The notes under the pieces were generated by a model. The model was not told where the DNA came from, did not search any database, and saw nothing but the letters and a program-made list of their open reading frames with translations. A program made the translations under genes and the position numbers. DNA of 64,000 bases from Gloeomargarita sp. SKYB120 (GTDB taxonomy: Bacteria > Cyanobacteriota > Cyanobacteriia > Gloeomargaritales > Gloeomargaritaceae), in NCBI GenBank assembly GCA_025062155.1, contig JANXAM010000004.1:5160-69159 (forward strand). Direction: 5' to 3'. Of the stretch, positions 42,759-54,797 are shown in pieces (position 1 is the stretch's first letter; every line of letters starts with the position of its first letter).

Positions 42759-43526
42759 ATGGCGTATCCCCCTTGGCTGCACTGGCTGGATGAATGTCCC
42801 AGCACCAACACCTGGGCGCTGCAATCTCTAGCGCGTTTACAACCGGGAGATGTCATCTACACGCCACGGCAAACGGCTGGTCGCGGGCGAGAGGGACGAG
42901 CCTGGTATGCGCCACCGGGGGTGTTGACGGCTTCGTTTGTACTGCATCCCGTTGTGGCAGCACACCTCCCTCAGTTGAGCTTAGCGGCGGGACTGGCGGT
43001 GATCCATGCCGTCGAAGATACGGTTCCCCTCTCGCCTGGCACCCTAGGCATCAAATGGCCGAATGACGTGGTGCTCAATGGCCGCAAGTTAGCCGGGGTG
43101 TTGTGTGAGCCGTCGTTGCCCTGGGTTGTGGTGGGCGTTGGCCTCAACCGCGCAGTGGATTGGCATACAGTTCTCGCAACGGCAGCGCCAAATTTATCCC
43201 TCGCCCAAGTCGCCAGTCTACTGGACGTCACACCCCATCCACCCGATGTCCTAACGGTGCTGAGTACATTGCGGCGTTACCTGCTCGAAGCCCACAGTTT
43301 GCTCCAGCGGGGGGGATGGGCTAAACTCTTGCCCCAGTTGCGCCAGCGGGATGTGCTGGATGGTTGCCCCTTGGTGATTCACACGGGTCAGCAAACGATG
43401 GCAGGCGTAGGGGCGGGCCTGGATGACCAGGGGCGCTTGCTACTGCAGGGAGCGGACGGAACTATCCACGCCCTCACAGCCGGACATGTAGTGCGCTGGG
43501 AACCGTTACGTTTCGTCGGGGATTAA
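42759..43526 (+). CDS. birA: Biotin--[acetyl-CoA-carboxylase] ligase
   Basis: Biotin protein ligase of 255 residues that charges biotin-carrier lysines. Seen: the N-terminal [10 protein letters not shown], the biotinyl-AMP loop [17 protein letters not shown], and [20 protein letters not shown], with a C-terminal SH3-like cap. No N-terminal repressor helix-turn-helix, so it is a catalytic-only form. Its last 21 bases overlap the 3' end of the convergent biotin-dependent carboxylase, a likely substrate through Lys1159 (positional inference; it must also serve acetyl-CoA carboxylase). Confidence 0.94.
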
Positions 43527-46500
43527 GGTCAGCACCGCTTGCCCTGCAGTAACCGGTTGTCCGGGTTGACGGAGAATTTGGGCGACCATCCCAGCGCAGG
43601 GGGCCAGCACCTCAATTTCCGTTTTCATGGCTTCAATGACAGCCACCTTTTGACTAGGGGCCACCCGCGCCTGGGGAGTGACATCTACCCGCCGCACCGT
43701 ACCGCTCACTTCGGCGTAGACCGCCACTTGTCCTTCAGGAATTTCTACCTCTGACAAGGCAGCCGTAAAGACGGGTACCTCCTGACTCGCGCGGTCAAAT
43801 TCCCCAGCCGCCACCCAGCGCTCCCGTTCCGCGTTGAAGGCTTGCTGTTGTTGGGTCTTGAACGCTTGAATCTCGGCCGCGTTTTGCGCCAAAAAGGCCA
43901 AGTAGTCTCGCAGTCGAAAGGTCTGCTCGTATATCTCCAATTTGACCCGACCGTAGATCAGGTCTTCCCGATAGCGCAGGAGTTCTTCAGCAGTGACTGG
44001 GAAAAAGCGAATCTGGTCAAAAAACCGCAGCAACCAGGGACGAGAAAACTCGCGGGTTCGACGGTAGCGGTTCCAGACAGGTACGGTGCGTCCTACTAAC
44101 TGATACCCCCCTGGTCCCTCCATGCCATAGATGCAGAGGTAGGCGCCGCCAATCCCTACAGCATTTTCCGGCGTCCAGGTGCGGGCCGGATTGTACTTGG
44201 TGGTTACCAGCCGATGCCGCGGATCCAAAGGAGTAGCCACAGGCGCTCCCAGGTACACATCCCCCAAGCCCAGCACCAAGTAACTGGCGGCAAACACAAT
44301 GTCATGCACCTGCTCGATAGCAGCCAAGCCGTTGATGCGCCGGATAAATTCCAGATTGCTGGGGCACCAGGGAGCATCTGGCCGCACCAACTGCATGTAT
44401 TTCTCGATGGCTAATTGAATCGCGGGGTCGTTCCAGGACAGGGGCAAATACACGATGCGCGTCGGCACCTCCATGTCCTGGACTGGAGGCAACTCCCGCT
44501 CCGCCTGGGCCAGCAGTTCCAGCAATGCCGCGCGGGGCAAACGCCGGTTGTCGTAATGCACCTGCAACGAGCGAATCCCCGGTGTCAGGTCAATAATTCC
44601 TGGTAGCCGCTGCGTCTGGAGCCAGGTCATCAGAGCATGCACCCGAAACCGCAGGGTCAAATCCAACGTCAACGGGCCGTATTCAATCAAGATGTATTTA
44701 TCTCCCGCCTGGCGATAAGTGACGCCCACCGGATGGGTTTCAGTCTCCTGGCGCAGGATGGGGTTTTCTATCACAGTTAGCGCCGCAGGCCGGGGTTGGG
44801 GTTGCAGGGTAGCAAGTTCACGTTCTTGTTGCTCCTCCCAGGCGCGGGCCATTTCCTCATCAATGGGCACAAACCGCACCGTATCCCCTGGTTTCAATTG
44901 CCCGATTTTCCACAGTTCCGCCTGCACAATGGTAGCTGGACACACAAACCCACCCAAGCTCGGTCCATCGCACCCCAAGATGATAGGCATATCCCCGGTA
45001 AAATCAATCGTGCCGATGGCGTAGGCGTTGTCGTGGATGTTGGACGGGTGCAATCCCGCTTCTCCCCCATCCGGTCTGGCCCAGGTGGGCTTGGGACCAA
45101 TCAGGCGAATGCCCGTGCGGTCTGAATGGTGATGCACCACCCAGGCGTGGTTCAACAACATTTCGATGTCCTCTGGCGTAAAAAAGTCGGGTGCCGCGTG
45201 GGGGCCAATCATCACCCCAATCTCCCAGGCGTGGGTGTAAGTCGGGATGAGTTCCGGGGGTAAAGCTTGGGGTCTGTCTTCCCCTGACCAAGGGACTAAC
45301 GGTAATACATCCCCTGTTCGCAGCGCTCGGCCTGCAGCTCCCCCGAATTGTCCGAGGGTAAACGTCGCCCGACTGCCCAGGTACGGCGGCACAGGAATAC
45401 CCCCCTGGATAGCAATGTAGGTGCGGCAACCGGGTCCCTGTACCGCTTTGAGTTCGAGCACGCTTCCCGCCGGCACCACCACCGTTTGCCAGTAGGGGAT
45501 GTCCTGGCCATTTAATTTTGCTGGCATGTAAGCTCCCGTTAGACATATCCGCGTCGGTGCGTTGAACCGCAACGTTGGCCCCACCAGTGTACATTCCAGT
45601 CCAGCGGCATCGGGTGGATTCCCCAGCAAACGATTGCCCCAGCGAAACGCCAGATGGTCCATCGGTCCCGACGGTGGCACCCCCACATCCCAGTAGCCCA
45701 AGCGCCCGGGATAATCCTGCACCGTCGTCATGGTTCCCGGTGCCAACACCTCTATCGTGTGGGGTTGATAGGGAAAATCCCCTAACAGACGGGTGTGCAC
45801 CTCTCCCTGCTGAAACGCGGGCGCCGCCAACACCTGTTGCAAATACTCCAGGTTGGTGACAATGCCGGCGATGGTGGTTTGGTCCAGGGCTGCTTGTAAT
45901 TTTCGGAGCGCTGCCGTCCGGTTTGTCCCGTGGGCAATCGCTTTGGCTAGCAACGGGTCATAAAACGGCGTTACTTCCGTGCCTGTTTCAATCCAGTGGT
46001 CCCAGCGAATACCGGATGCCAACTGTACATAGGTCAACGTCCCAGCGCTGGGTTGGAAATTTTTATGGGGGTCTTCGGCGTAAATCCGGACCTGGATGGC
46101 ATGACCGTGGGGATTGGGTGTCCAGGCATCGAAAAACGCCCGCTCACCCGCCGCCAGTCGCACCATCCATTCCACCAAATCCACGCCCCAGACCAGCTCG
46201 GTGACCCCATGCTCCACCTGCAGGCGGGTGTTGACTTCCAGGAAGTAAAACCGTTCCGTCTGCACGTCATAAATAAATTCCACCGTGCCCGCTGATTGGT
46301 ACTGCACCGCTTCGCCTAGCCGTCGGGCTGCTGCTGCTAAGGCCTGGCGGATTTCCTCACGCAAACCGGGCGCTGGTGTTTCTTCAATCACCTTTTGATT
46401 CCGGCGTTGAGTCGAACAGTCCCGTTCCCCCAGCGCCAGTACCCGCCCCTGCCCATCCCCAAAAATTTGCACCTCAATGTGGCGCGCCCTCGGGATGTAC

Positions 46501-47099
46501 TTTTCCAGGAAGACACCTGCGTTACCAAAGTTGGCCTGGCTCAGGCGTTGCACCTGCTCATAGGCTGCGGCCAGTTCTGCCGGGCTATAGCAACAGCGCA
46601 TCCCAATCCCACCGCCGCCTGCCGTGCTTTTGAGCATGACCGGGTAACCGATGTCAGCCGCCGCCGCTTGAGCTTCCTGGAGACTATTTAATAAGGATGT
46701 GCCGGGCACCAGGGGAATGCCGTGGGCTTCGGCTAGAGAACGGGCGACGTGTTTGAGACCGAATTGGCGCACCTGTTCCGGTTTGGGGCCGATGAATACC
46801 AGTCCTTGTTGGGCGCAGGCGTCAGCAAAATCGGCATTTTCGCTTAGGAACCCGTAGCCTGGATGAATCGCCTCTGCCCCCGTCGCCCTGGCAATTTCCA
46901 AAAACCGGTCTGCGCACAGGTAACTCTCGCTCGCCAGGGTTCCCCCTAGGGGTTGGGCCTCGGTGGCCATTTGCACGTGGAGACTGTGGCGGTCTGGTTC
47001 TGAATACACAGCCACACTGGCAATGCCCAGCCGATTCAGCGTACGAATGACGCGACACGCAATTTCCCCCCGGTTGGCCACCAAGACCTTGCGGAACAT
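43506..47099 (-). CDS. Biotin-dependent urea/guanidine carboxylase
   Basis: A 1197-residue multidomain carboxylase. Order: biotin carboxylase domain (about 1-450; [52 protein letters not shown]), an AHS2/KipA-type domain and an AHS1/KipI-type domain together forming the carboxyltransferase (about 455-1060; [25 protein letters not shown]-type loop), and a C-terminal biotinyl domain with EAMKTE, biotin on Lys1159. It carboxylates urea or guanidine with bicarbonate and ATP. The guanidine riboswitch and the two DUF1989 genes upstream argue for guanidine as main substrate (established association for such operons); sequence alone does not settle it. Last gene of the riboswitch operon. Confidence 0.9.
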
Positions 47100-47103
47100 C
47101 CCC

Positions 47104-47745
47104 TTACGCAGCGTCCCAGACCAGCAGGCGGATTGGAGTAGGGTTGTAGGCGTTGCAGGGGTTATTGATCTGGGGACAGTTGGAAATCAGCACCATCACA
47201 TCCATCTCTGCCCGCAGGTCCACGTATTTCCCCGGCGCGGAAATCCCATCCACAATCTCCAAGCGCCCATCGGCAGTCACCGGCACGTTCATGAAGAAAT
47301 TGATATTGCTCACCAAATCCCGCTTGTGCAGGCCGTACTTGCTCAGCTCCAGCAGGAAATTCTCCACACAGGCGTGCAGGTGCTTCTTGTGCAACCCGTA
47401 GCGCACCGAATTGCTCTCCATGCTGCAAGCACCTCCCAGCGTGTCGTGGCGGCCACAGGTATCCGCAATCACCGTCATCAGCACGTTGCCCAGGTTGGAG
47501 ATGAGCTGGGTTCCCGTGGTGATAAAGATATTGCCCTGGCGCACTACCGTATCAGGGGCGCTGTAGCGTTCGGACGGGTCATGGGCGTTATAAATCAGGG
47601 TGTCCACCGCCTGGTTGCCCTCCAGGTCCACAATCCGCAGGACTTGGCCTTTGGTAATCACCTTGGACCAGGGTTGACGCGCCGGCAGCACATAGTCGTA
47701 AATTGCTTGGGCTGGGTCCAGTACACGTTCCGTCGTCGCCACCAT
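47104..47745 (-). CDS. Urea carboxylase-associated protein 2 (DUF1989; carboxyguanidine deiminase subunit)
   Basis: A 213-residue DUF1989 protein. Known members of this pair (CgdA/CgdB) form the deiminase that converts carboxyguanidine to allophanate and ammonia. Visible: [40 protein letters not shown], the Cys/His-containing [13 protein letters not shown] (metal or catalytic site) and [20 protein letters not shown]. The start is ATG 47745, preceded by a near-perfect AAGGAGGTGA; the frame extends three codons further to a GTG inside that site. Four bases separate its stop from the carboxylase start. Base use like its neighbours. Confidence 0.9.
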
Positions 47746-47781
47746 GATGGTCACCTCCTTACGTACAACAACAGCACAGAA

Positions 47782-48555
47782 TTACAGCGCGTAGGTCGGC
47801 ATGAGCGGTCGTTGCAGCCACCAGGTATCGGTGTTGATGAAGGCCCGTTTTGCCTCTTCATTGGCCGTGCGGCACAGGTCATCAGGTCCCGGCGCAGGGG
47901 AACGCCACACCGTCAGTTGCACCGGCGGCGGGTTGTAGGTCGTGTCGGGATGCAGGACGTGGGGGCAATTGGCAACCACCACCAGCACATTCATTTCCGC
48001 CCGTAGGTCAATGAAGCTCCCTGGTTTGGCCGCTGTGGCATCGTAGTGCAACTCGCCATTGGGTCCCACCGTCACCCGGCTAAAGAAATTCACACAGGGC
48101 ATCAAATCCCGGCGACTCATACCCCACTTGCCCAGCGCCCGCAAAAACTGGTCTCGCGCGTTGTGGAAATCCCGCCGGCCAAACTTGTCATCGCCCCCTT
48201 CCCCATACTTGGCGCGGTTGCGCTCCGGCGTACTGCACCCGCAAATCAGGTCATGCCCGTTGGACGTGTCCTCGGTGATGGAAAACAACACCCGCCCCAT
48301 GTCCGAGTAGAGCACCATCCCCTTGCGCAAAAACGCATTGAACTGAATCTTGGCCGTATCCGCCACATTCAGCCGCTCCATGGGTCGGTCCGCGTTGTAG
48401 CAAATCATGGACACCCCGTGGGACCCGCCCAAATCCGTGATGCGCAGCGTTTGCCAGCGGGGGACAATGCCGTGCCAATAGGCCCCACCTGGTAACTTTT
48501 CCGACCAGACCACCAACTCCGGTGCAATGTCCGTGGGATTGATTGTGGCAACCAT
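47782..48555 (-). CDS. Urea carboxylase-associated protein 1 (DUF1989; carboxyguanidine deiminase subunit)
   Basis: A 257-residue DUF1989 protein, paralogue of the next gene. It has KLPGGAYWHGIVPRWQTLRI, GGSHGVSMICYNADRPMERL, the Cys/His cluster NGHDLICGCSTPERNRAKYG and FIDLRAEMNVLVVVANCPHV. It should pair with the smaller DUF1989 subunit as carboxyguanidine deiminase. The start ATG has GGAGGGAGAG ahead. It is the first gene after the class I guanidine riboswitch, whose end lies about 75 nt upstream. Confidence 0.9.
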   Translation of the reverse strand: MVATINPTDIAPELVVWSEKLPGGAYWHGIVPRWQTLRITDLGGSHGVSMICYNADRPMERLNVADTAKIQFNAFLRKGMVLYSDMGRVLFSITEDTSNGHDLICGCSTPERNRAKYGEGGDDKFGRRDFHNARDQFLRALGKWGMSRRDLMPCVNFFSRVTVGPNGELHYDATAAKPGSFIDLRAEMNVLVVVANCPHVLHPDTTYNPPPVQLTVWRSPAPGPDDLCRTANEEAKRAFINTDTWWLQRPLMPTYAL

Positions 48556-48575
48556 CGCTCTCCCTCCATGCGGTT

Positions 48576-48645
48576 CAAAACAACGAAGCCCAGGAGTCTC
48601 GTCATCCAGCCTGTTGCCAGACCTTCAGCACGTCCTCCCGGGCTT
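48576..48645 (-). terminator. Riboswitch expression platform: terminator-like hairpin
   Basis: On the minus strand AAGCCCGGGAG (48645-48635) can pair with CTCCTGGGCTT (48596-48586), 11 base pairs with one G-U, followed by CGTTGTTTTG. The 5' arm is part of the conserved 3' side of the guanidine aptamer, so ligand-bound aptamer and this hairpin are mutually exclusive. This predicts transcription ON with guanidine. The U-tract is imperfect. Folding is inferred from reading the sequence. Confidence 0.65.
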
Positions 48646-48738
48646 TTATCCCGCCGTGTGACCGCTACCTGTTCGGGTAACGGCTTGCTTCTCTTGGACC
48701 AGTCGCGGCTACTGCCGCCGGAACCCTAGAAGCTCTCC
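48630..48738 (-). promoter_or_regulatory. Guanidine-I (ykkC class I) riboswitch
   Basis: On the minus strand, in order: GCTTCTAGGGTTCCGGCGGC, GACTGGTCCAAGAGAAGC, an internal stem around CCGTTACCCGAACAGGTAGC, then CACACGGCGGGATAAAAGCC and CGGGAGGACG. The strings CTAGGGTTCCG, CTGGTCC-AGAG, ACACGG and GGGATAAAAGCCCGGGAG are the invariant parts of the ykkC guanidine-I aptamer. It sits directly ahead of the DUF1989 / carboxylase operon, a location typical for this class. Confidence 0.92.
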
Positions 48739-48800
48739 TGCTTGCTCTATTGCCACAAACTAACCCTGCAACACTGGCAAAACAGTCGCCTACGCTACTT

Positions 48801-48816
48801 TTTACAAAAATTTACA
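48801..48816 (+). promoter_or_regulatory. HLR1-type direct repeat (candidate RpaB site) near guanidine operon promoter
   Basis: TTTACAAAAATTTACA matches the HLR1 core exactly. It overlaps the last codons of the Rieske gene and lies about 65 nt upstream of the guanidine riboswitch, where the operon's own promoter would be expected. The same 16-mer occurs at 50032-50047. Function inferred. Confidence 0.45.
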
Positions 48817-49894
48817 TGCCAGCCAGTGTCGTCATCGCGCCTTGCAGGTGAGCCAGCAGGAGTTTTTGGTGGTGCAGGATGCGGGCTTCCAGGGGGTGAA
48901 CCGGTCCCGGCTGGTAGCGACCGCTGGCGTAACCCCTTTGCACTGATTCCGCCAGGGCCATGTCTTCCCGCATGAAAGCCTCTAGTTCAGCCAGCAGTTC
49001 GTCCAGGTTGGTCTCTGGCATCCCGTAAATGTCCGTCACCACATCGCACTCGTCCACTGTCACGGGGTCAATGCGCAGGCAAGCCAGGGAGCCGTCGGGG
49101 AGCGCCAGGATGTGCAGGTTGGGGAACACCCCGAACGTGTAGAAATGGGTTTGGTTTTCCGGCGGCAAATCCCTACGCACCCGATGGCAAGCCAACCATT
49201 CTGGGGGCACCGGCGTCACCAGGGCATTGACGTAGCGACCAAAGCGATGCTGGTAATGGCGCACCGGTCCCTGCAGGCGGTGGAGCGTCTGGCTGTGAGC
49301 GACCGCCACGTGGTAATCGCACAGCGTGTTGTCGTGATAGACCTTCCAGTTGCAGGCCACCCGCCGGGTCTGCTGGTGCCGCCACCGCCATTCCCCCTGC
49401 GCGTACAGACCCAGCATTTGCGACATAGGCGCTAGATACTCCGCCAACGGCATCACGTCCGGGTTGAAACTCACAAACAGCAATCCTTGCCAAACTGCAA
49501 CGTGCACCGGCTGCAACGGATAATCCCGACCGTCAAACCCTTCGCCAAACCCTTTCTGCCGCGCCGCTGCTACAAATTGCCCTTGCAAGTCATACACCCA
49601 GGCGTGGTACGGGCAAATCAGGCGCTTGGTCTGAAAAATCCCCGGTTCTGGACAAAGTTCCATCGCCCGGTGGGGACACAGGTTGTGAAATCCCTGCAAT
49701 TGCCCGGCTTCATCCCGGATGACCAGCACGCTCACACCCGCAATGTGGGTTGCCCAAACCGTTCCCGGCATGGCAACTGGTTCGGCTGGCCCGAGATACA
49801 ACCAGGTCTGGTGAAAAATCTGTGCTTGTTCCTGGGGAATCAACGTTGGGTCTGTGTAATGCTGCGCCTGCAGCAGGAATCGGTCAAGTTTCAT
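48812..49894 (-). CDS. Rieske non-heme iron oxygenase (aromatic-ring-hydroxylating / N-demethylase type)
   Basis: A 360-residue oxygenase alpha subunit. Rieske [2Fe-2S] ligands: Cys73 and His75 in CPHR, Cys94 and His97 in CPYH. Catalytic mononuclear iron region: CNWKVYHDNTLCDYHVAVAH with His195 and His200, and a C-terminal EDMALAESVQRG supplying the third acidic ligand. No reductase or ferredoxin gene adjoins, so photosynthetic ferredoxin may be the donor (inference). The family includes N-demethylases such as glycine-betaine and choline oxygenases. It lies upstream of the guanidine riboswitch operon on the same strand and divergent from the ABC importer, suggesting oxidation of an N-alkylated guanidine or related compound. 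Start ATG 49894 (MKLDRFLL); no clear ribosome-binding site. Confidence 0.88.
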   Translation of the reverse strand: MKLDRFLLQAQHYTDPTLIPQEQAQIFHQTWLYLGPAEPVAMPGTVWATHIAGVSVLVIRDEAGQLQGFHNLCPHRAMELCPEPGIFQTKRLICPYHAWVYDLQGQFVAAARQKGFGEGFDGRDYPLQPVHVAVWQGLLFVSFNPDVMPLAEYLAPMSQMLGLYAQGEWRWRHQQTRRVACNWKVYHDNTLCDYHVAVAHSQTLHRLQGPVRHYQHRFGRYVNALVTPVPPEWLACHRVRRDLPPENQTHFYTFGVFPNLHILALPDGSLACLRIDPVTVDECDVVTDIYGMPETNLDELLAELEAFMREDMALAESVQRGYASGRYQPGPVHPLEARILHHQKLLLAHLQGAMTTLAGM

Positions 49895-49921
49895 ACTGCG
49901 GTCATACAAACAACGCCATTA

Positions 49922-49977
49922 TTCCGGCTGAGCAGGCAACGGCTTGAACTCAGTCGCTATCACCAGCTCTCCCGGAA
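49922..49977 (-). other. Nested inverted repeats in the Rieske gene leader
   Basis: On the minus strand TTCCGG (49977-49972) pairs with CCGGAA (49927-49922), and inside it CTGAG (49953-49949) pairs with CTCAG (49932-49928), an arrangement of closing stem plus inner stem about 30 nt before the Rieske start. It may be a structured RNA leader. It does not match a riboswitch class I can name, and could be chance. Confidence 0.35.
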
Positions 49978-50014
49978 GCAGTCCTCATCCTTGCCCCCGC
50001 CACCCTGGAAAAAA

Positions 50015-50028
50015 GTATAAAAAACTAC
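50015..50028. promoter_or_regulatory. NtcA-type binding site (GTA-N8-TAC)
   Basis: GTATAAAAAACTAC is an exact GTA(N8)TAC palindrome, the consensus site of NtcA, the global nitrogen regulator of cyanobacteria. It is in the divergent region between the Rieske gene and the ABC-transporter operon. About 22 bases further on the plus strand is TTAAAAAT, a weak -10-like box; the match to the full activated-promoter layout is therefore partial. Confidence 0.6.
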
Positions 50029-50031
50029 TTC

Positions 50032-50047
50032 TTTACAAAAATTTACA
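50032..50047 (+). promoter_or_regulatory. HLR1-type direct repeat next to NtcA site
   Basis: TTTACAAAAATTTACA followed by AT matches the full HLR1 consensus including the trailing A/T pair. It begins 3 nt after the NtcA-type palindrome and 183 nt before the binding-protein gene. An AT-rich promoter could produce this by chance, but the same 16-mer recurs at 48801. Confidence 0.5.
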
Positions 50048-50214
50048 ATTAAAAATTTTGGGGGCTTATATATGTATCGGGGTAAAGAGAGAGAAAAATA
50101 ACTGTAGCTTTTGATACTGTTTTTCAGAAAACGAAATTGGGATGGTGAAAAAGGAGCTTGCTGGTAAAACGGTCAAGTGTCAGCAGGCACCTTTCAGTGC
50201 GGGTTTGTATCGCT

Positions 50215-51222
50215 ATGAGACGAAAATCATCTCAGCTTGCTGGGGTTTTGTTTGTGCTGAGTTTGTTGCTGGCGGTTAGTTGCGGGCCAGCGAATGTCAC
50301 GTCCGATGATGTTGTGGTGCGGCTTGGTTTTAGTGCTTGGCCAGGCTGGTTTCCCTGGCAAGTCGCCCAGGAGAAAGGCATCTTTCAGAAGCACAATGTG
50401 CGTGTGGAATTGCAATGGTTTGACAGCTACACTGACTCTATGAATGCCCTCAAAGCCGAGCAACTCGATGCCAATTCACAAACGTTAAACGACACAATTA
50501 GTGCCGTGGCTGGTGGGGCTGACCAGGTGATTGTTTTGGTCAACGATAACTCCACCGGTAATGACCAAATTATCGTGCGCGAAGGCATCAACACTCTGGC
50601 GGATTTGAAGGGCAAAAAACTAGCAGCCGAAGAAGGCTCTGTCAGTCATTTCTTCCTATCGTTGGTGTTAGAACGGGCGGGGTTAACGTTGCAGGATATT
50701 ACCTTTGTGCCCTTGGAAACGGGGAAAGCCGCCGCCGCTTTTGCCGCTGGTCAAGTGGATGGGGTCGCTGTTTTTGCACCCTTTACCACCCAGGCCTTGA
50801 AACGACCGGCTAGCAAAGTGTTAACCAGTTCCAAGGATTTTCCAGGTGCCATTTCCGACCATTTGGTCTTTACTCGCCGGTTTGTGGAGCAGTACCCACA
50901 GCAGGTGCAAAAAGTGGTGGATGCCTGGTTCGATACGCTCAAGTACATTCAGGAACATCCTGATGAATCAGTAGCCATCATGGCGAAACGGGCTAACGTC
51001 ACGGTGGCTGAATACAAGCAATATGCTACCGGCACTCGCATTTTTAATGCCCAAGAAAATGTCACAGCCTTTCAACCCGGCAAGGACATGACATCCCTAC
51101 CATTTGCAGCCCAGAAAGTCAGTGCCTTTTTGGTGCAGACAGGACTGGCAAAAACTCAACCCGATGTAAGTCGGTTATTCGATGACCGATTTGTGAAAAC
51201 CTACGTCGCCCAAGCTCAGTAA
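50215..51222 (+). CDS. ABC transporter substrate-binding lipoprotein (NrtA/SsuA/TauA type), candidate guanidine importer
   Basis: A 335-residue binding protein. N-terminal signal MRRKSSQLAGVLFVLSLLLA ends in a lipobox-like AVSC with Cys23 as lipid anchor, so it sits on the outside of the cytoplasmic membrane. The mature part has the NMT1/THI5-like fold signature: RLGFSAWPGWFPWQVAQEKG, NTLADLKGKKLAAEEGSVSH and GKAAAAFAAGQVDGVAVFAP. The start is ATG 50215; the frame is open 19 codons upstream from a TTG. First of four plus-strand genes that end in allophanate hydrolase. Ligand is inferred from the locus. Confidence 0.88.
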   Translation: MRRKSSQLAGVLFVLSLLLAVSCGPANVTSDDVVVRLGFSAWPGWFPWQVAQEKGIFQKHNVRVELQWFDSYTDSMNALKAEQLDANSQTLNDTISAVAGGADQVIVLVNDNSTGNDQIIVREGINTLADLKGKKLAAEEGSVSHFFLSLVLERAGLTLQDITFVPLETGKAAAAFAAGQVDGVAVFAPFTTQALKRPASKVLTSSKDFPGAISDHLVFTRRFVEQYPQQVQKVVDAWFDTLKYIQEHPDESVAIMAKRANVTVAEYKQYATGTRIFNAQENVTAFQPGKDMTSLPFAAQKVSAFLVQTGLAKTQPDVSRLFDDRFVKTYVAQAQ

Positions 51223-51232
51223 CGCCTAGGCC

Positions 51233-52084
51233 ATGACTCCCGACTCGACACCCCCCCAAATGACGCCGCGCCGTTTGCCAAAGCCGTCTCTACAGCCATC
51301 GGTATTCTGGCGCTTGGCTGAAGATATCCCCGCCCCCCTGTACCGGCGATTAATGCTGGTGTCAGTACTAGTGCCCCTAGTGGCCTGGTGGTTGCTAACC
51401 ACGTTTGGACAGGTGGACGCCAAGTTTTTGCCATCGCCAGGGCAGGTTGCCACGGCAGCACTCCGGCTAGGTCAATCCGGGGAATTGTGGCAGGACACCT
51501 GGGCCAGTTTGCGGCGGGTGGGCATTGGGTTTGGGTTGTCGGTACTGGTGGCGGTGCCAGTAGGCGTTTTGATGGGGTGTTTCCAGAGTTTGCGGGCGCT
51601 GGGAGAACCCCTATTTGGGTTGATGCGGTATATGCCGGCGCCAGCGTTTATCCCCTTGCTGATTCTGTATCTGGGGATTGACGAAGCCCCCAAAATTGCC
51701 CTGATTTTTATCGGTACTTTTTTCTACAACGCTCTGATGGTCATGGACACAGTGAAATTTGTCCCCAAGGAGTTAATTGAAGCGACCTACATGCTGGGTG
51801 GTAATCGGGTGAATACAGTTATACGGGTGATTTTTCCCCATGTATTGCCGGGAATTTTGGATACGTGCCGGATCAATTTTGCATCGGCGTGGCAGCTTGT
51901 AATTGTGGCAGAACTGGTGGCGGCAACCGAAGGCTTGGGACGGCGGATCAGTTTAGCAGGACGGTTCCTGCGCACGGATGAAATTTTTGTGGGTTTGATG
52001 GTCATCGGACTCATTGGTTTGGGTCTAGATTTGTTCTTCCAATATCTGGTGCGGGTGACCTGTCGGTGGGCGCAGCCAGAATGA
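51233..52084 (+). CDS. ABC transporter permease (SsuC/TauC type)
   Basis: A 283-residue inner-membrane permease with about six hydrophobic helices and the BPD_transp_1 EAA loop EATYMLGGNRVNTVIRVIFP followed by HVLPGILDTCRI, which contacts the ATPase. It starts 11 nt after the binding-protein gene and is followed after 32 nt by the ATPase gene, so it is part of one importer. Confidence 0.92.
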   Translation: MTPDSTPPQMTPRRLPKPSLQPSVFWRLAEDIPAPLYRRLMLVSVLVPLVAWWLLTTFGQVDAKFLPSPGQVATAALRLGQSGELWQDTWASLRRVGIGFGLSVLVAVPVGVLMGCFQSLRALGEPLFGLMRYMPAPAFIPLLILYLGIDEAPKIALIFIGTFFYNALMVMDTVKFVPKELIEATYMLGGNRVNTVIRVIFPHVLPGILDTCRINFASAWQLVIVAELVAATEGLGRRISLAGRFLRTDEIFVGLMVIGLIGLGLDLFFQYLVRVTCRWAQPE

Positions 52085-52116: not shown

Positions 52117-52914
52117 ATGTTTCTGCAAGTGCGTGAGTTGACCAAGGTTTTCTCCACCCGGCAAGGGCCTTTGCTAGTGCTGGAGAATATCAATCTCTCC
52201 GTTGCGCAGGGGGAATTTGTCTGTGCCGTGGGGGCGTCCGGTTCTGGAAAATCCACCTTGCTTCGACAGATCGCAGGCCTTGACCAACCGACGCGGGGCG
52301 GGGTGTGGATTGACGGCCAGCGAGTGACGGGTCCGGGGGCCGACCGGGGCATGGTATTTCAGCACTACACGCTCTACCCCTGGATGACGGCGCAGCAGAA
52401 TGTGGAGTTTGGTTTAGAGCTGCAGGGGGTGCCGAAACGGGAACGGCGAGAACGGGCGCGTTACTACCTGCAGATGGTGGGGTTAAGTCACTTCACCCAG
52501 GCGCTGCCCCGGCAGTTATCCGGTGGCATGAAACAACGGGTGGCGATTGCACGGGCGCTGGCGACGGAACCTCGGTTGCTCCTGCTGGATGAACCCTTCG
52601 GCGCTCTGGACCTGCACACGCGGGAGATGATGCACGAATTTATGCTGGACCTGTGGCAGCGCACGGGTCTGACAGTGTTCATGATTACGCATGACGTGGA
52701 GGAGGCGGTGTTTCTATCCACGCGCATCTTTGCCCTGAGTGCGCGTCCCGGTCGCATCGTGCGTGAAATCACGGTAGACTTGCCTGATCGTTCCCAGGGG
52801 GTGATGGCGACCAAACGGCACCCCCGTTTCCATGACTACCGGGATGAGCTGGTGATGCTGTTGCGACAAACGGGTCAGGCGGCTCAACGGCGAGCAGTGG
52901 CGATGGCGGCCTGA
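52117..52914 (+). CDS. ABC transporter ATP-binding protein (SsuB/TauB type)
   Basis: A 265-residue ATPase with Walker A GASGSGKSTLL (about 39-49), Q-loop VFQHYTLYPWM, signature LSGGMKQRVAIARAL, Walker B LLLLDEPFGALD and switch His in MITHDVEEAV. A GGAGGTGATGT ribosome-binding region precedes the ATG. The last codon is followed by the allophanate hydrolase start within 2 nt, tying transport and catabolism in one transcript. Confidence 0.94.
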   Translation: MFLQVRELTKVFSTRQGPLLVLENINLSVAQGEFVCAVGASGSGKSTLLRQIAGLDQPTRGGVWIDGQRVTGPGADRGMVFQHYTLYPWMTAQQNVEFGLELQGVPKRERRERARYYLQMVGLSHFTQALPRQLSGGMKQRVAIARALATEPRLLLLDEPFGALDLHTREMMHEFMLDLWQRTGLTVFMITHDVEEAVFLSTRIFALSARPGRIVREITVDLPDRSQGVMATKRHPRFHDYRDELVMLLRQTGQAAQRRAVAMAA

Positions 52915-52915
52915 C

Positions 52916-54250
52916 ATGGGGAGTGACGTTCGCCTAGACCTTCAATCCCTACGCCAAGCCTACATCGCTGGTAAACTCGCGCCCACTCAGGTGGTGAAGC
53001 AGGTTTACGAGCGCATCGAACGCTACAGCGACCCAGCGGTATGGATTTATCTGGCTCCCCCAGCAGAGAGCTTGGCCCGGGCAGCGCACCTGGAAACCCG
53101 TGACCCGGCGGGCTTACCCCTGTACGGTATCCCTTTTGCCATCAAGGACAACATTGACTGGGCGGGAGTACCCACAACGGCTGGCTGCCCAGCGTTTGCC
53201 TATGTCCCAGCAGTTTCGGCAACGGTCGTAGCGAAGTTGGAGGCCGCTGGCGCGATTCCCATTGGCAAGACCAATCTCGACCAGTTTGCGACGGGGCTGG
53301 TGGGGACGCGCTCGCCCTACGGCATTTGCCGCAATCCCTGGCATCCAGAGTACATTCCTGGCGGGTCCAGTTCCGGCTCGGCGGTGGCGGTGGCGGCGGG
53401 TTTGGTGAGTTTTAGCCTGGGGACGGATACGGCAGGTTCAGGTCGGGTGCCGGCAGCGCTCAACGGCATCGTCGGTCTCAAACCTACGCGCGGTTATCTC
53501 AGCACCAGGGGCGTTGTACCGGCAGTGCGCAGTTTGGATTGCGTGTCCATCTTCGCCCAGACGGTGGGGGATGCCCAAGCTGTTTTCCAGGTGGCGGCGG
53601 GTTTTGACCCGGAAGACCCCTTTTCTCGGCGACCGGCTCCACCCCCGGCGTTACCCCCAACAACGGTGCGTCTAGGCGTTCCCCCGCTGGAACAGTTGGA
53701 CTTTATGGGCAATCAAGCGGCGGCCCAAAACTACCAGGCGGCGGTGCAGCGGTTTGCCGATATAGGCGCACAGGTGGTGACGGTGGATATTCAGCCGTTT
53801 CTCGCCGCTGGGGAATTACTCTACGAAGGAGCGTGGCTGGCCGAACGCACGGCGGCGGTTGGGGATTTTTTAGTCCAGGACCATCCCGGCCTAGACCCGA
53901 CAGTACGCCAGATCATCCTGGCGGGACGAGAGATTTCGGGTGTCCAGGTGTTCCGGGACATGTACCGCCTGCAAGCGCTGCAACGGGAAACCGAAGCTCA
54001 ATGGGAACGGATGGACCTGCTGCTGTTGCCAACGATAGGGACAGCCTACCGGGTGCAGGAGGTGCTGGCGCAACCGGTGGAACTGAACCAGCGTTTAGGG
54101 CGCTACACCAACTTTGTGAATTTGTTGGATTTGTGTGCGCTGGCGTTGCCCAGTGGCTTTCAGCCTGATGGGTTGCCAACAGGTGTCACTTTGATAGCCC
54201 CAGCTTGGCACGAAGCGCAGTTGTGCGCATGGGGTGAGCGTTATAGCTAA
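52916..54250 (+). CDS. atzF: Allophanate hydrolase, amidase part (3' end altered by MITE)
   Basis: The amidase-signature domain of allophanate hydrolase, which releases ammonia and CO2 from allophanate. 444 residues. The Ser-cisSer-Lys triad is present: Lys77 in FAIKDNIDW, the GGSSSGSAVA loop at 149-158, and nucleophile Ser175 in GTDTAGSGRVPA. The usual protein is about 600 residues with a C-terminal domain; here that domain is a separate gene at 54375. A MITE begins at 54242, so the last native codon is at 54241 and the protein ends with two element-encoded residues (Tyr-Ser) instead of about eleven native ones. Starts 2 nt after the ATPase gene. The active site should be intact; coupling with the next gene is lost. 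Confidence 0.9.
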   Translation: MGSDVRLDLQSLRQAYIAGKLAPTQVVKQVYERIERYSDPAVWIYLAPPAESLARAAHLETRDPAGLPLYGIPFAIKDNIDWAGVPTTAGCPAFAYVPAVSATVVAKLEAAGAIPIGKTNLDQFATGLVGTRSPYGICRNPWHPEYIPGGSSSGSAVAVAAGLVSFSLGTDTAGSGRVPAALNGIVGLKPTRGYLSTRGVVPAVRSLDCVSIFAQTVGDAQAVFQVAAGFDPEDPFSRRPAPPPALPPTTVRLGVPPLEQLDFMGNQAAAQNYQAAVQRFADIGAQVVTVDIQPFLAAGELLYEGAWLAERTAAVGDFLVQDHPGLDPTVRQIILAGREISGVQVFRDMYRLQALQRETEAQWERMDLLLLPTIGTAYRVQEVLAQPVELNQRLGRYTNFVNLLDLCALALPSGFQPDGLPTGVTLIAPAWHEAQLCAWGERYS

Positions 54251-54344
54251 GCTGCTTTAGTTTGTCAGAGAGAGGAGAGAAAACCCAAAGGCCAGGCCGT
54301 GCGCTGGGACTCAAGGGCTGACAACCATAGATGGCTTGGCTATA
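54242..54344 (+). repeat. MITE copy C, at the atzF gene junction
   Basis: A 103-bp element with ends TATAGCTAAGC and GCTTGGCTATA and the inner repeats GTTTGTCAG / CTGACAAC, about 95 % identical to the copy at 7677-7779 by direct comparison. TA at both borders fits duplication of a TA target. It lies between the two halves of allophanate hydrolase. Confidence 0.92.
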
Positions 54345-54374
54345 TTACCAGGCGCTGCCACGGAGAAAAGACCC

Positions 54375-54797
54375 GTGAGTATGACGGAACCCTGGGTGCG
54401 CTTAGCAGTGGTGGGCGCTCATCTCACCGGTCAACCCTTGAATGGGGAATTGCTGGCGTTGCAGGCTCGATATGTACGCACCTGTACCACAGCTCCTATT
54501 TACCGTCTCTACGCGCTGCCCGGGGGAGAAATCCCTAAGCCAGGTCTCATCCGTCAACCGCCGGGCCAACCGGGTTACGCCATCGAGGTAGAGGTATGGG
54601 AACTGCCGGTGGGAAATTTCGGTCGCCTGGTAGCGCAAATTCCTTCGCCCCTAGGGATTGGGACCGTAGTGCTAGCTGACGGCGAGATGGTGAAAGGTTT
54701 TTTGTGTGAATGGTTTGCTATCGTGAACGCCCTAGATATTTCCCATTTCGGGGGTTGGCGAGCCTACTTACGCCAGAGCTACAGCAATCCCACTTGA
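54375..54797 (+). CDS. Allophanate hydrolase C-terminal domain, separate gene
   Basis: A 140-residue protein matching the C-terminal domain of allophanate hydrolase: VRLAVVGAHLTGQPLNGELL, TAPIYRLYALPGGEIPKPGL, VEVWELPVGNFGRLVAQIPS, PLGIGTVVLADGEMVKGFLC and FGGWRAYLRQ. The GTG at 54375 (or ATG 54381) has GGAGAAAAG about eight bases ahead. In the reconstructed pre-insertion sequence the amidase frame would end at TGA 54376-54378, overlapping this GTG by four bases (GTGA). In fused relatives this domain completes allophanate breakdown. Confidence 0.85.
   Translation: MSMTEPWVRLAVVGAHLTGQPLNGELLALQARYVRTCTTAPIYRLYALPGGEIPKPGLIRQPPGQPGYAIEVEVWELPVGNFGRLVAQIPSPLGIGTVVLADGEMVKGFLCEWFAIVNALDISHFGGWRAYLRQSYSNPT

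Follow-up and report, generated by a model that had tools for sequence, protein, structure and literature searches.

What does a Rieske-type oxygenase do in the guanidine locus of a cyanobacterium? To our knowledge, enzymes that produce guanidine are few, though free guanidine is sensed by widespread riboswitches. The locus lies in a stretch of 64,000 nucleotides from Gloeomargarita sp. SKYB120 (the window), where a Guanidine-I (ykkC) riboswitch (48633..48740, minus strand; Rfam RF00442, 84.7 bits, E 1e-13) is situated between the stop codon of the Rieske gene and an operon, likewise on the minus strand, encoding UAAP1 (47782..48555; TIGR03425, PF09347), UAAP2 (47104..47754; TIGR03424, PF09347) and a urea/guanidine carboxylase (43506..47099; TIGR02712, 1853 bits against a cut-off of 1304). 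UAAP1 and UAAP2 are DUF1989 proteins of the carboxyguanidine deiminase subunit type (CgdA/B-type for UAAP1). Divergent from the Rieske gene, on the plus strand, runs an operon for an SsuA/TauABC-type importer, with a substrate-binding protein of the SsuA/NMT1 type (50158..51222; TIGR01728 over its cut-off), a permease (51233..52084; PF00528) and an ATPase (52117..52914; PF00005), and for allophanate hydrolase, whose amidase domain (52916..54250; TIGR02713/PRK08186 over cut-off) and C-terminal domain (54336..54797; PF21986) are separate genes. Together, the riboswitch, carboxylase, two DUF1989 proteins and allophanate hydrolase identify a guanidine carboxylase pathway locus. The same two-gene split of allophanate hydrolase recurs in other Gloeomargarita loci (L005, L206, L207 and L209), and one genome (G005; L209, 16948-18344) carries a second, fragmentary birA/allophanate hydrolase copy downstream of the guanidine locus. 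We consider it moderately probable that the Rieske enzyme is an N-dealkylase that releases guanidine from a methylguanidine-like compound; that methylguanidine itself is the substrate is a plausible, more tentative proposition.

The gene reads from an ATG at 49894 to a TAA at 48812 on the minus strand (48812..49894) and encodes a complete Rieske non-heme-iron oxygenase alpha subunit of 360 aa, which we annotate as a predicted alkylguanidine N-dealkylase based on its Pfam domains, its orthologue clade and the match of its model fold to stachydrine demethylase and CntA. Counterparts are 99% identical in the Gloeomargarita MAG SKYG116 and 77% identical in a third genome. The sequence-only reading had described a full alpha subunit between the riboswitch operon and the importer operon, and this description holds: the open reading frame is intact, and both the Rieske (PF00355, 2.3e-14) and Ring_hydroxyl_A (PF00848, 2.2e-22) domains exceed their Pfam cut-offs. 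The [2Fe-2S] domain (residues 31-111; 49562..49804, minus strand) carries the C-x-H ... C-x2-H cluster motif as C73-P-H75 and C94-P-Y-H97, invariant among 16 aligned orthologues. Equally invariant in these 16 are H195-x4-H200 and a C-terminal D311, which aligns with the ED of CntA; with PF00848 above cut-off, these residues mark a 2-His-1-carboxylate catalytic domain, in which we take H195, H200 and D311 to be the iron ligands.

The surroundings of the mononuclear iron site are less conventional. A bridging carboxylate three residues before the first iron histidine is usual in such enzymes, though not universal, and nearly all of the outgroup Rieskes aligned here have E or D at that place. In the window protein, alignment of the motif H187-D-N-T-L-C192-D193-Y-H195-x4-H200 (49295..49336, minus strand) puts a cysteine at the canonical place of the bridging acid and an aspartate one residue later, an arrangement that is invariant among the orthologues outside marine Synechococcus. 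The latter have D-D-Y-H, with Asp at both places, giving the clade the distinctive motif H-D-N-x-L-[C/D]-D-Y-H-x4-H; since marine Synechococcus orthologues retain an Asp at the canonical place, we dropped the idea that the bridging acid was lost clade-wide. Asp193 may stand in for it, judging from its position. Cys192 nevertheless counts against an N-dealkylase, and the changed bridging acid in most orthologues, together with a report that ties the gene only to the iron demand of its cluster (PMC10119275), would suit an iron-dependent accessory of guanidine use, be it an electron carrier, a sensor or an oxidant of guanidine itself, instead of an oxygenase of substituted guanidines. We regard such a role as very improbable: the catalytic domain is complete, with H-x4-H and the C-terminal Asp conserved, the GdmH and carboxylase pathways function elsewhere without a Rieske protein, and Gloeomargarita genomes that lack the Rieske gene retain the entire carboxylase/importer locus.

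We then placed the protein among known Rieske families. The best NCBIfam model was GbcA (5.9e-36), yet the match of 123.8 bits misses the equivalog cut-off of 670, and identity with GbcA was rejected. Among solved structures, the top sequence matches are stachydrine demethylase and CntA, and the same two enzymes account for the top 16 fold matches in the PDB of an AlphaFold2 model (pLDDT 78, pTM 0.84). As these best fold matches are N-dealkylating Rieskes, they argue for an N-dealkylase. In a tree of 56 proteins, comprising 32 cyanobacterial orthologues, E. coli CntA (YeaW) and 23 other Rieskes, the orthologues formed one cyanobacteria-only clade (SH-aLRT 100). As to carnitine oxygenases, a relationship which the sequence-only reading had left to phylogeny, the tree places the window protein in a cyanobacterial clade of its own, apart from YeaW. 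Identity with CntA was rejected on the place of YeaW among the outgroups (clade support 100) and the absence of a CntB/YeaX-type reductase partner nearby, and identity with an aromatic dioxygenase by curated cut-offs and the tree. The initial remark that no reductase accompanies the gene proved true of the whole genome, where the sole PF00970 flavoprotein is PetH, the photosynthetic ferredoxin-NADP reductase; because of this, the electron donor is probably photosynthetic ferredoxin.

Genomic context across cyanobacteria gave a more direct indication of the pathway served. At an orthologue threshold of E <= 1e-45, 53 of 390 cyanobacterial genomes surveyed encode the Rieske protein, and 208 of the 390 carry a Guanidine-I riboswitch. 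The riboswitch is present in 45 of the 53 Rieske genomes and in 163 of the 337 others (odds ratio 6, p = 5e-7, kinship ignored), and for 34 of the 53 orthologues it lies within ~10 kb of the Rieske gene. Twelve further orthologues, with no riboswitch called locally, stand beside an importer and/or GdmH, HypA/B or type III glutamine synthetase; several of these are on short contigs, and that of Kastovskya is only beside a more distant importer. In total, 46/53 orthologues adjoin a riboswitch, importer or guanidine genes, which argues for the N-dealkylase; four (G213, G379, G103 and G144) have no guanidine genes nearby, which argues against it, and three are cut by contig ends. The suspected co-occurrence with guanidine metabolism is thus strongly borne out, and no consistent tie of the orthologues to unrelated pathways emerged.

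The usual gene order is riboswitch, GdmH-HypA-HypB and/or type III glutamine synthetase, substrate-binding protein, permease, ATPase and Rieske, with a carboxylase set replacing the GdmH set in Gloeomargarita and in genomes of the FACHB-502 type. In Nodosilinea, Leptothoe and marine Synechococcus, the Rieske gene closes the riboswitch operon or the set of guanidine and importer genes that belongs to it, whereas in Gloeomargarita it lies upstream of the riboswitch and not behind it; in one genome (G328), its sequence shares 4 nt with the gene for the importer ATPase. The adjacent guanidine-breaking enzyme is therefore variable (carboxylase, or GdmH-HypAB, with or without type III glutamine synthetase) and the importer and Rieske are constant, the pattern one would predict for an enzyme turning an imported compound into guanidine. 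Genomes whose Rieske locus has no guanidine genes, or none but glutamine synthetase, encode a full carboxylase or GdmH (83-90% identity) at another site. Of 14 Rieske genomes tested, 13 had one or the other and the remaining one is 68% complete; this too favours an enzyme that releases guanidine. Guanidine-I riboswitch operons include type III glutamine synthetase (TIGR03105) itself, with or without GdmH, in the Nodosilinea group (L006, L010, L016 and L182) and in marine Synechococcus (L123-L125).

Some members of the clade have other neighbours. In Kastovskya (L131, 5364-9907, minus strand), the orthologue is found with an isochorismatase-type hydrolase and the more distant importer, no riboswitch being detected, and this cluster possibly imports a different substrate. 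Basal members of the clade (L135, 8614-10653, and L184, 5629-7515, both minus strand) adjoin an N-methyltransferase of the NNMT/PNMT/TEMT family (PF01234), hinting at N-methyl chemistry. Both arrangements, and the fact that the nearest folds use stachydrine and carnitine, are what one might see if the Rieske demethylated or hydroxylated an imported quaternary or tertiary amine and were co-regulated with guanidine genes only as part of a nitrogen-scavenging locus. With a guanidine-specific riboswitch near 34 of the 53 orthologues and guanidine degradation encoded in all near-complete Rieske genomes tested, we find a non-guanidine substrate of this kind rather improbable.

A second protein encoded beside many of the Rieske genes bears on the chemistry. 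In Vreelandella boliviensis, which employs the 2-oxoglutarate/Fe(II) dioxygenase MgdH, demethylation of methylguanidine is completed by MgdL (UniProt A0A265DXW6), a beta-barrel lyase in which D49 and R51 split N-(hydroxymethyl)guanidine and Glu, Asp and Trp hold guanidine; the spontaneous half-life of N-(hydroxymethyl)guanidine exceeds one hour (PMC12508155). In cyanobacteria, a gene for an HRI1-like protein (Pfam PF16815, a weak match) follows the Rieske gene in Nodosilinea-type genomes and precedes it in the FACHB-502 type. Its product is a predicted beta barrel with invariant W10, D39-x-R41, E122, E138 and W140, for which the Foldseek matches were all weak, to lipocalin-like folds or designed barrels. 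A profile built from the cyanobacterial proteins recovered gammaproteobacterial proteins in L159 (E 2e-17) and L161 (E 3e-13), each the product of the third gene of an operon organised as Guanidine-II riboswitch, carboxylase, 2OG dioxygenase and X. As residues 49 and 51 of the L159 protein are D and R, gene order and residue numbers, used here in place of the published sequence, indicate that it is very probably MgdL or its orthologue. The genome that carries this putative MgdH-MgdL operon also has a second locus (L158, 6745-11731), where an HRI1-like protein is encoded together with a 2OG dioxygenase and an ABC importer of the Pot type; a gene of the arginase family lies in its vicinity.

Such MgdL-like proteins are encoded in 37 of 380 cyanobacterial genomes, 23 of which also have the Rieske (odds ratio 17, kinship ignored). 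By coordinates, the two genes directly adjoin in 18 of these 23, which supports the N-dealkylase, and two separate branches of the HRI1-like family adjoin the same Rieske clade. The cyanobacterial proteins, however, share just 24-29% identity with the putative MgdL, and all HRI1-like members sampled have the D-x-R motif, including those from contexts unrelated to guanidine; we therefore rejected the motif as proof of lyase function, and both facts weigh against taking the neighbour itself as such proof. In Gloeomargarita, a search for an MgdL-like gene gave no match even at E 0.1, and none was found in marine Synechococcus and several other Rieske holders, which again speaks against the N-dealkylase. 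In several genomes (L129, 2504-3214, minus strand; G147, G336, G317, G333 and G354), an in-frame stop interrupts the HRI1/MgdL-like gene next to the Rieske, which may point to a decaying lyase gene or to errors of assembly.

HRI1-like proteins also accompany a membrane oxygenase of the FA_desaturase type, in gammaproteobacteria under Guanidine-I riboswitches (L156, 4354-7160, and L157, 8796-16642, both minus strand) and in cyanobacteria without a detected riboswitch (L171, 5545-9081, and L172, 5128-7907). A creatininase-type protein is also present in L157, L171 and L172. This pairing is a candidate for a third oxygenase route to guanidine. The Rieske cluster of the FACHB-502 type and the L171 cluster share an isochorismatase-type hydrolase (73% identical) and an SDR (76% identical), such that the Rieske stands at the place of the desaturase. 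The exchange supports an N-dealkylase and points to substituted guanidines, some perhaps derived from creatinine, as the substrate class. It might be asked whether the Rieske instead frees guanidine from a larger import, such as a guanidino acid, a creatine- or creatinine-type compound or an alkylguanidine longer than methyl, with the carbon adjoining the guanidino nitrogen as the site of hydroxylation. Its genomic association would be the same, the related clusters of oxygenases and MgdL-like proteins hold creatininase (L157, L171) and isochorismatase-type amidases, and plant homoarginine-6-hydroxylases are reported to produce guanidine through hydroxylation (PMC11018352). We nonetheless think a larger substrate unlikely, as creatininase is absent from the cyanobacterial Rieske clusters themselves and the MgdL-like neighbour suggests a small hemiaminal. 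More broadly, and with some doubt on our part, MgdL-like proteins might be the hallmark of a wider group of guanidine N-dealkylation systems, for which no fewer than three oxygenases of unrelated kinds (2OG/Fe(II), Rieske and membrane desaturase-type di-iron) were independently recruited to make N-(hydroxyalkyl)guanidines split by a dedicated lyase, the cyanobacterial Rieske, reaching marine Synechococcus, forming the photosynthetic branch.

Within Gloeomargarita, the Rieske gene is bounded by a 16-bp element, TTTACAAAAATTTACA, with one exact copy that overlaps the stop codon of the Rieske gene and lies ~60 nt upstream of the riboswitch (copy A, 48801..48816) and another in the divergent Rieske/importer intergenic region (copy B, 50032..50047), against 0.01 copies expected in the window at up to 2 mismatches. 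No exact copy was found in the rest of the 2.48-Mb genome assembly. Both copies are kept in G003 and G004, copy A differing by 1 mismatch in the latter; the Rieske-less Gloeomargarita (G001, G002 and G005) have the same carboxylase/importer locus with a single copy in the shared divergent region. That the gene sits exactly between two locus-specific copies, where relatives have one, indicates its gain or loss at one site, and flanking by an assembly-unique element lends further weight to an N-dealkylase function tied to this locus. TTTACAAAAATTTACA could serve as an operator. An NtcA-like box, GTA-N8-TAC, at 50104..50117 is likewise kept in G003 and G004, this pattern being frequent by chance (8 in the window against 4.7 expected); a second candidate at 50015 was rejected, since it is lost in G004 and the pattern is common. 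Sigma-70 promoter and terminator scans of 48500-50250 gave no matches.

Taken together, the data suggest a route in which the co-encoded ABC importer would take up guanidine as well as its methylated or other N-alkylated derivatives. Electrons would reach the Rieske cluster from photosynthetic ferredoxin, itself reduced by light or PetH, allowing the mononuclear iron to hydroxylate the N-methyl carbon. The resulting hemiaminal, N-(hydroxymethyl)guanidine in the case of methylguanidine, would yield guanidine and formaldehyde, alone or via the MgdL-like lyase of many relatives; in Gloeomargarita, it would decay by itself or through another enzyme. Free guanidine would switch on the Guanidine-I riboswitch and be broken down by the carboxylase, CgdAB and allophanate hydrolase in Gloeomargarita and by GdmH in most others. 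Of the original proposal of an alkylguanidine N-demethylase, the assignment to a guanidine pathway has stood, and demethylation is indicated indirectly, by the N-dealkylating nearest folds and the MgdL homologue next to the Rieske in many genomes, Gloeomargarita being without one. If correct, this would give cyanobacteria, including marine Synechococcus, a Rieske-type, ferredoxin-driven source of guanidine, point to substituted guanidines as a genuine source of nitrogen in fresh, hot-spring and ocean water, provide a function for a gene known before only as an iron-sulfur protein of the picocyanobacterial nitrogen cluster, and make the origin of environmental guanidine testable. Our search of the open-licence literature returned no paper joining a Rieske oxygenase with methylguanidine or proposing a Rieske guanidine N-dealkylase.

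The enzyme can be set beside several known systems. GbcA, the glycine betaine monooxygenase, resembles it as top NCBIfam model and differs in the score far under cut-off and the lack of betaine genes near the window Rieske. With the carnitine monooxygenase CntA/YeaW and stachydrine demethylase (Stc2), it would share the cutting of C-N bonds by a Rieske monooxygenase; both, however, are only ~22-24% identical in the fold alignment and outside the clade (CntA as tested in the tree). CntA further has the bridging motif ECYH in place of CDYH, and in E. coli is adjoined by the reductase YeaX, which has no equivalent here. The saxitoxin Rieske oxygenases SxtT and SxtDIOX act on substrates that bear guanidinium groups, and their match is confined to the Rieske domain of the window protein (6wnc, E 6e-7). 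In Synechococcus and Cyanobium, CK_00002251, a putative Rieske Fe-S protein encoded behind gdmH-hypAB-tauABC, has been read as a sign of iron demand, without an oxygenase role or a link to substituted guanidines or MgdL (PMC10119275); the Rieskes at that place (L120-L127) belong to the same clade as the window protein, and from its position we infer that CK_00002251 is this gene. The same paper reports gdmH in Synechocystis PCC 6803, whose cluster lacks a Rieske gene. Also comparable are MgdH and MgdL of Vreelandella boliviensis (PMC12508155), where an oxygenase is likewise embedded in a guanidine-riboswitch carboxylase/importer locus, many cyanobacteria have a homologous beta-barrel protein beside the oxygenase, and the predicted products are again guanidine and formaldehyde. 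The Gloeomargarita locus itself lacks the MgdL-like gene, and MgdH is a 2OG-Fe(II) dioxygenase, whereas the cyanobacterial enzyme has an unrelated Rieske fold and is proposed only to work alike.
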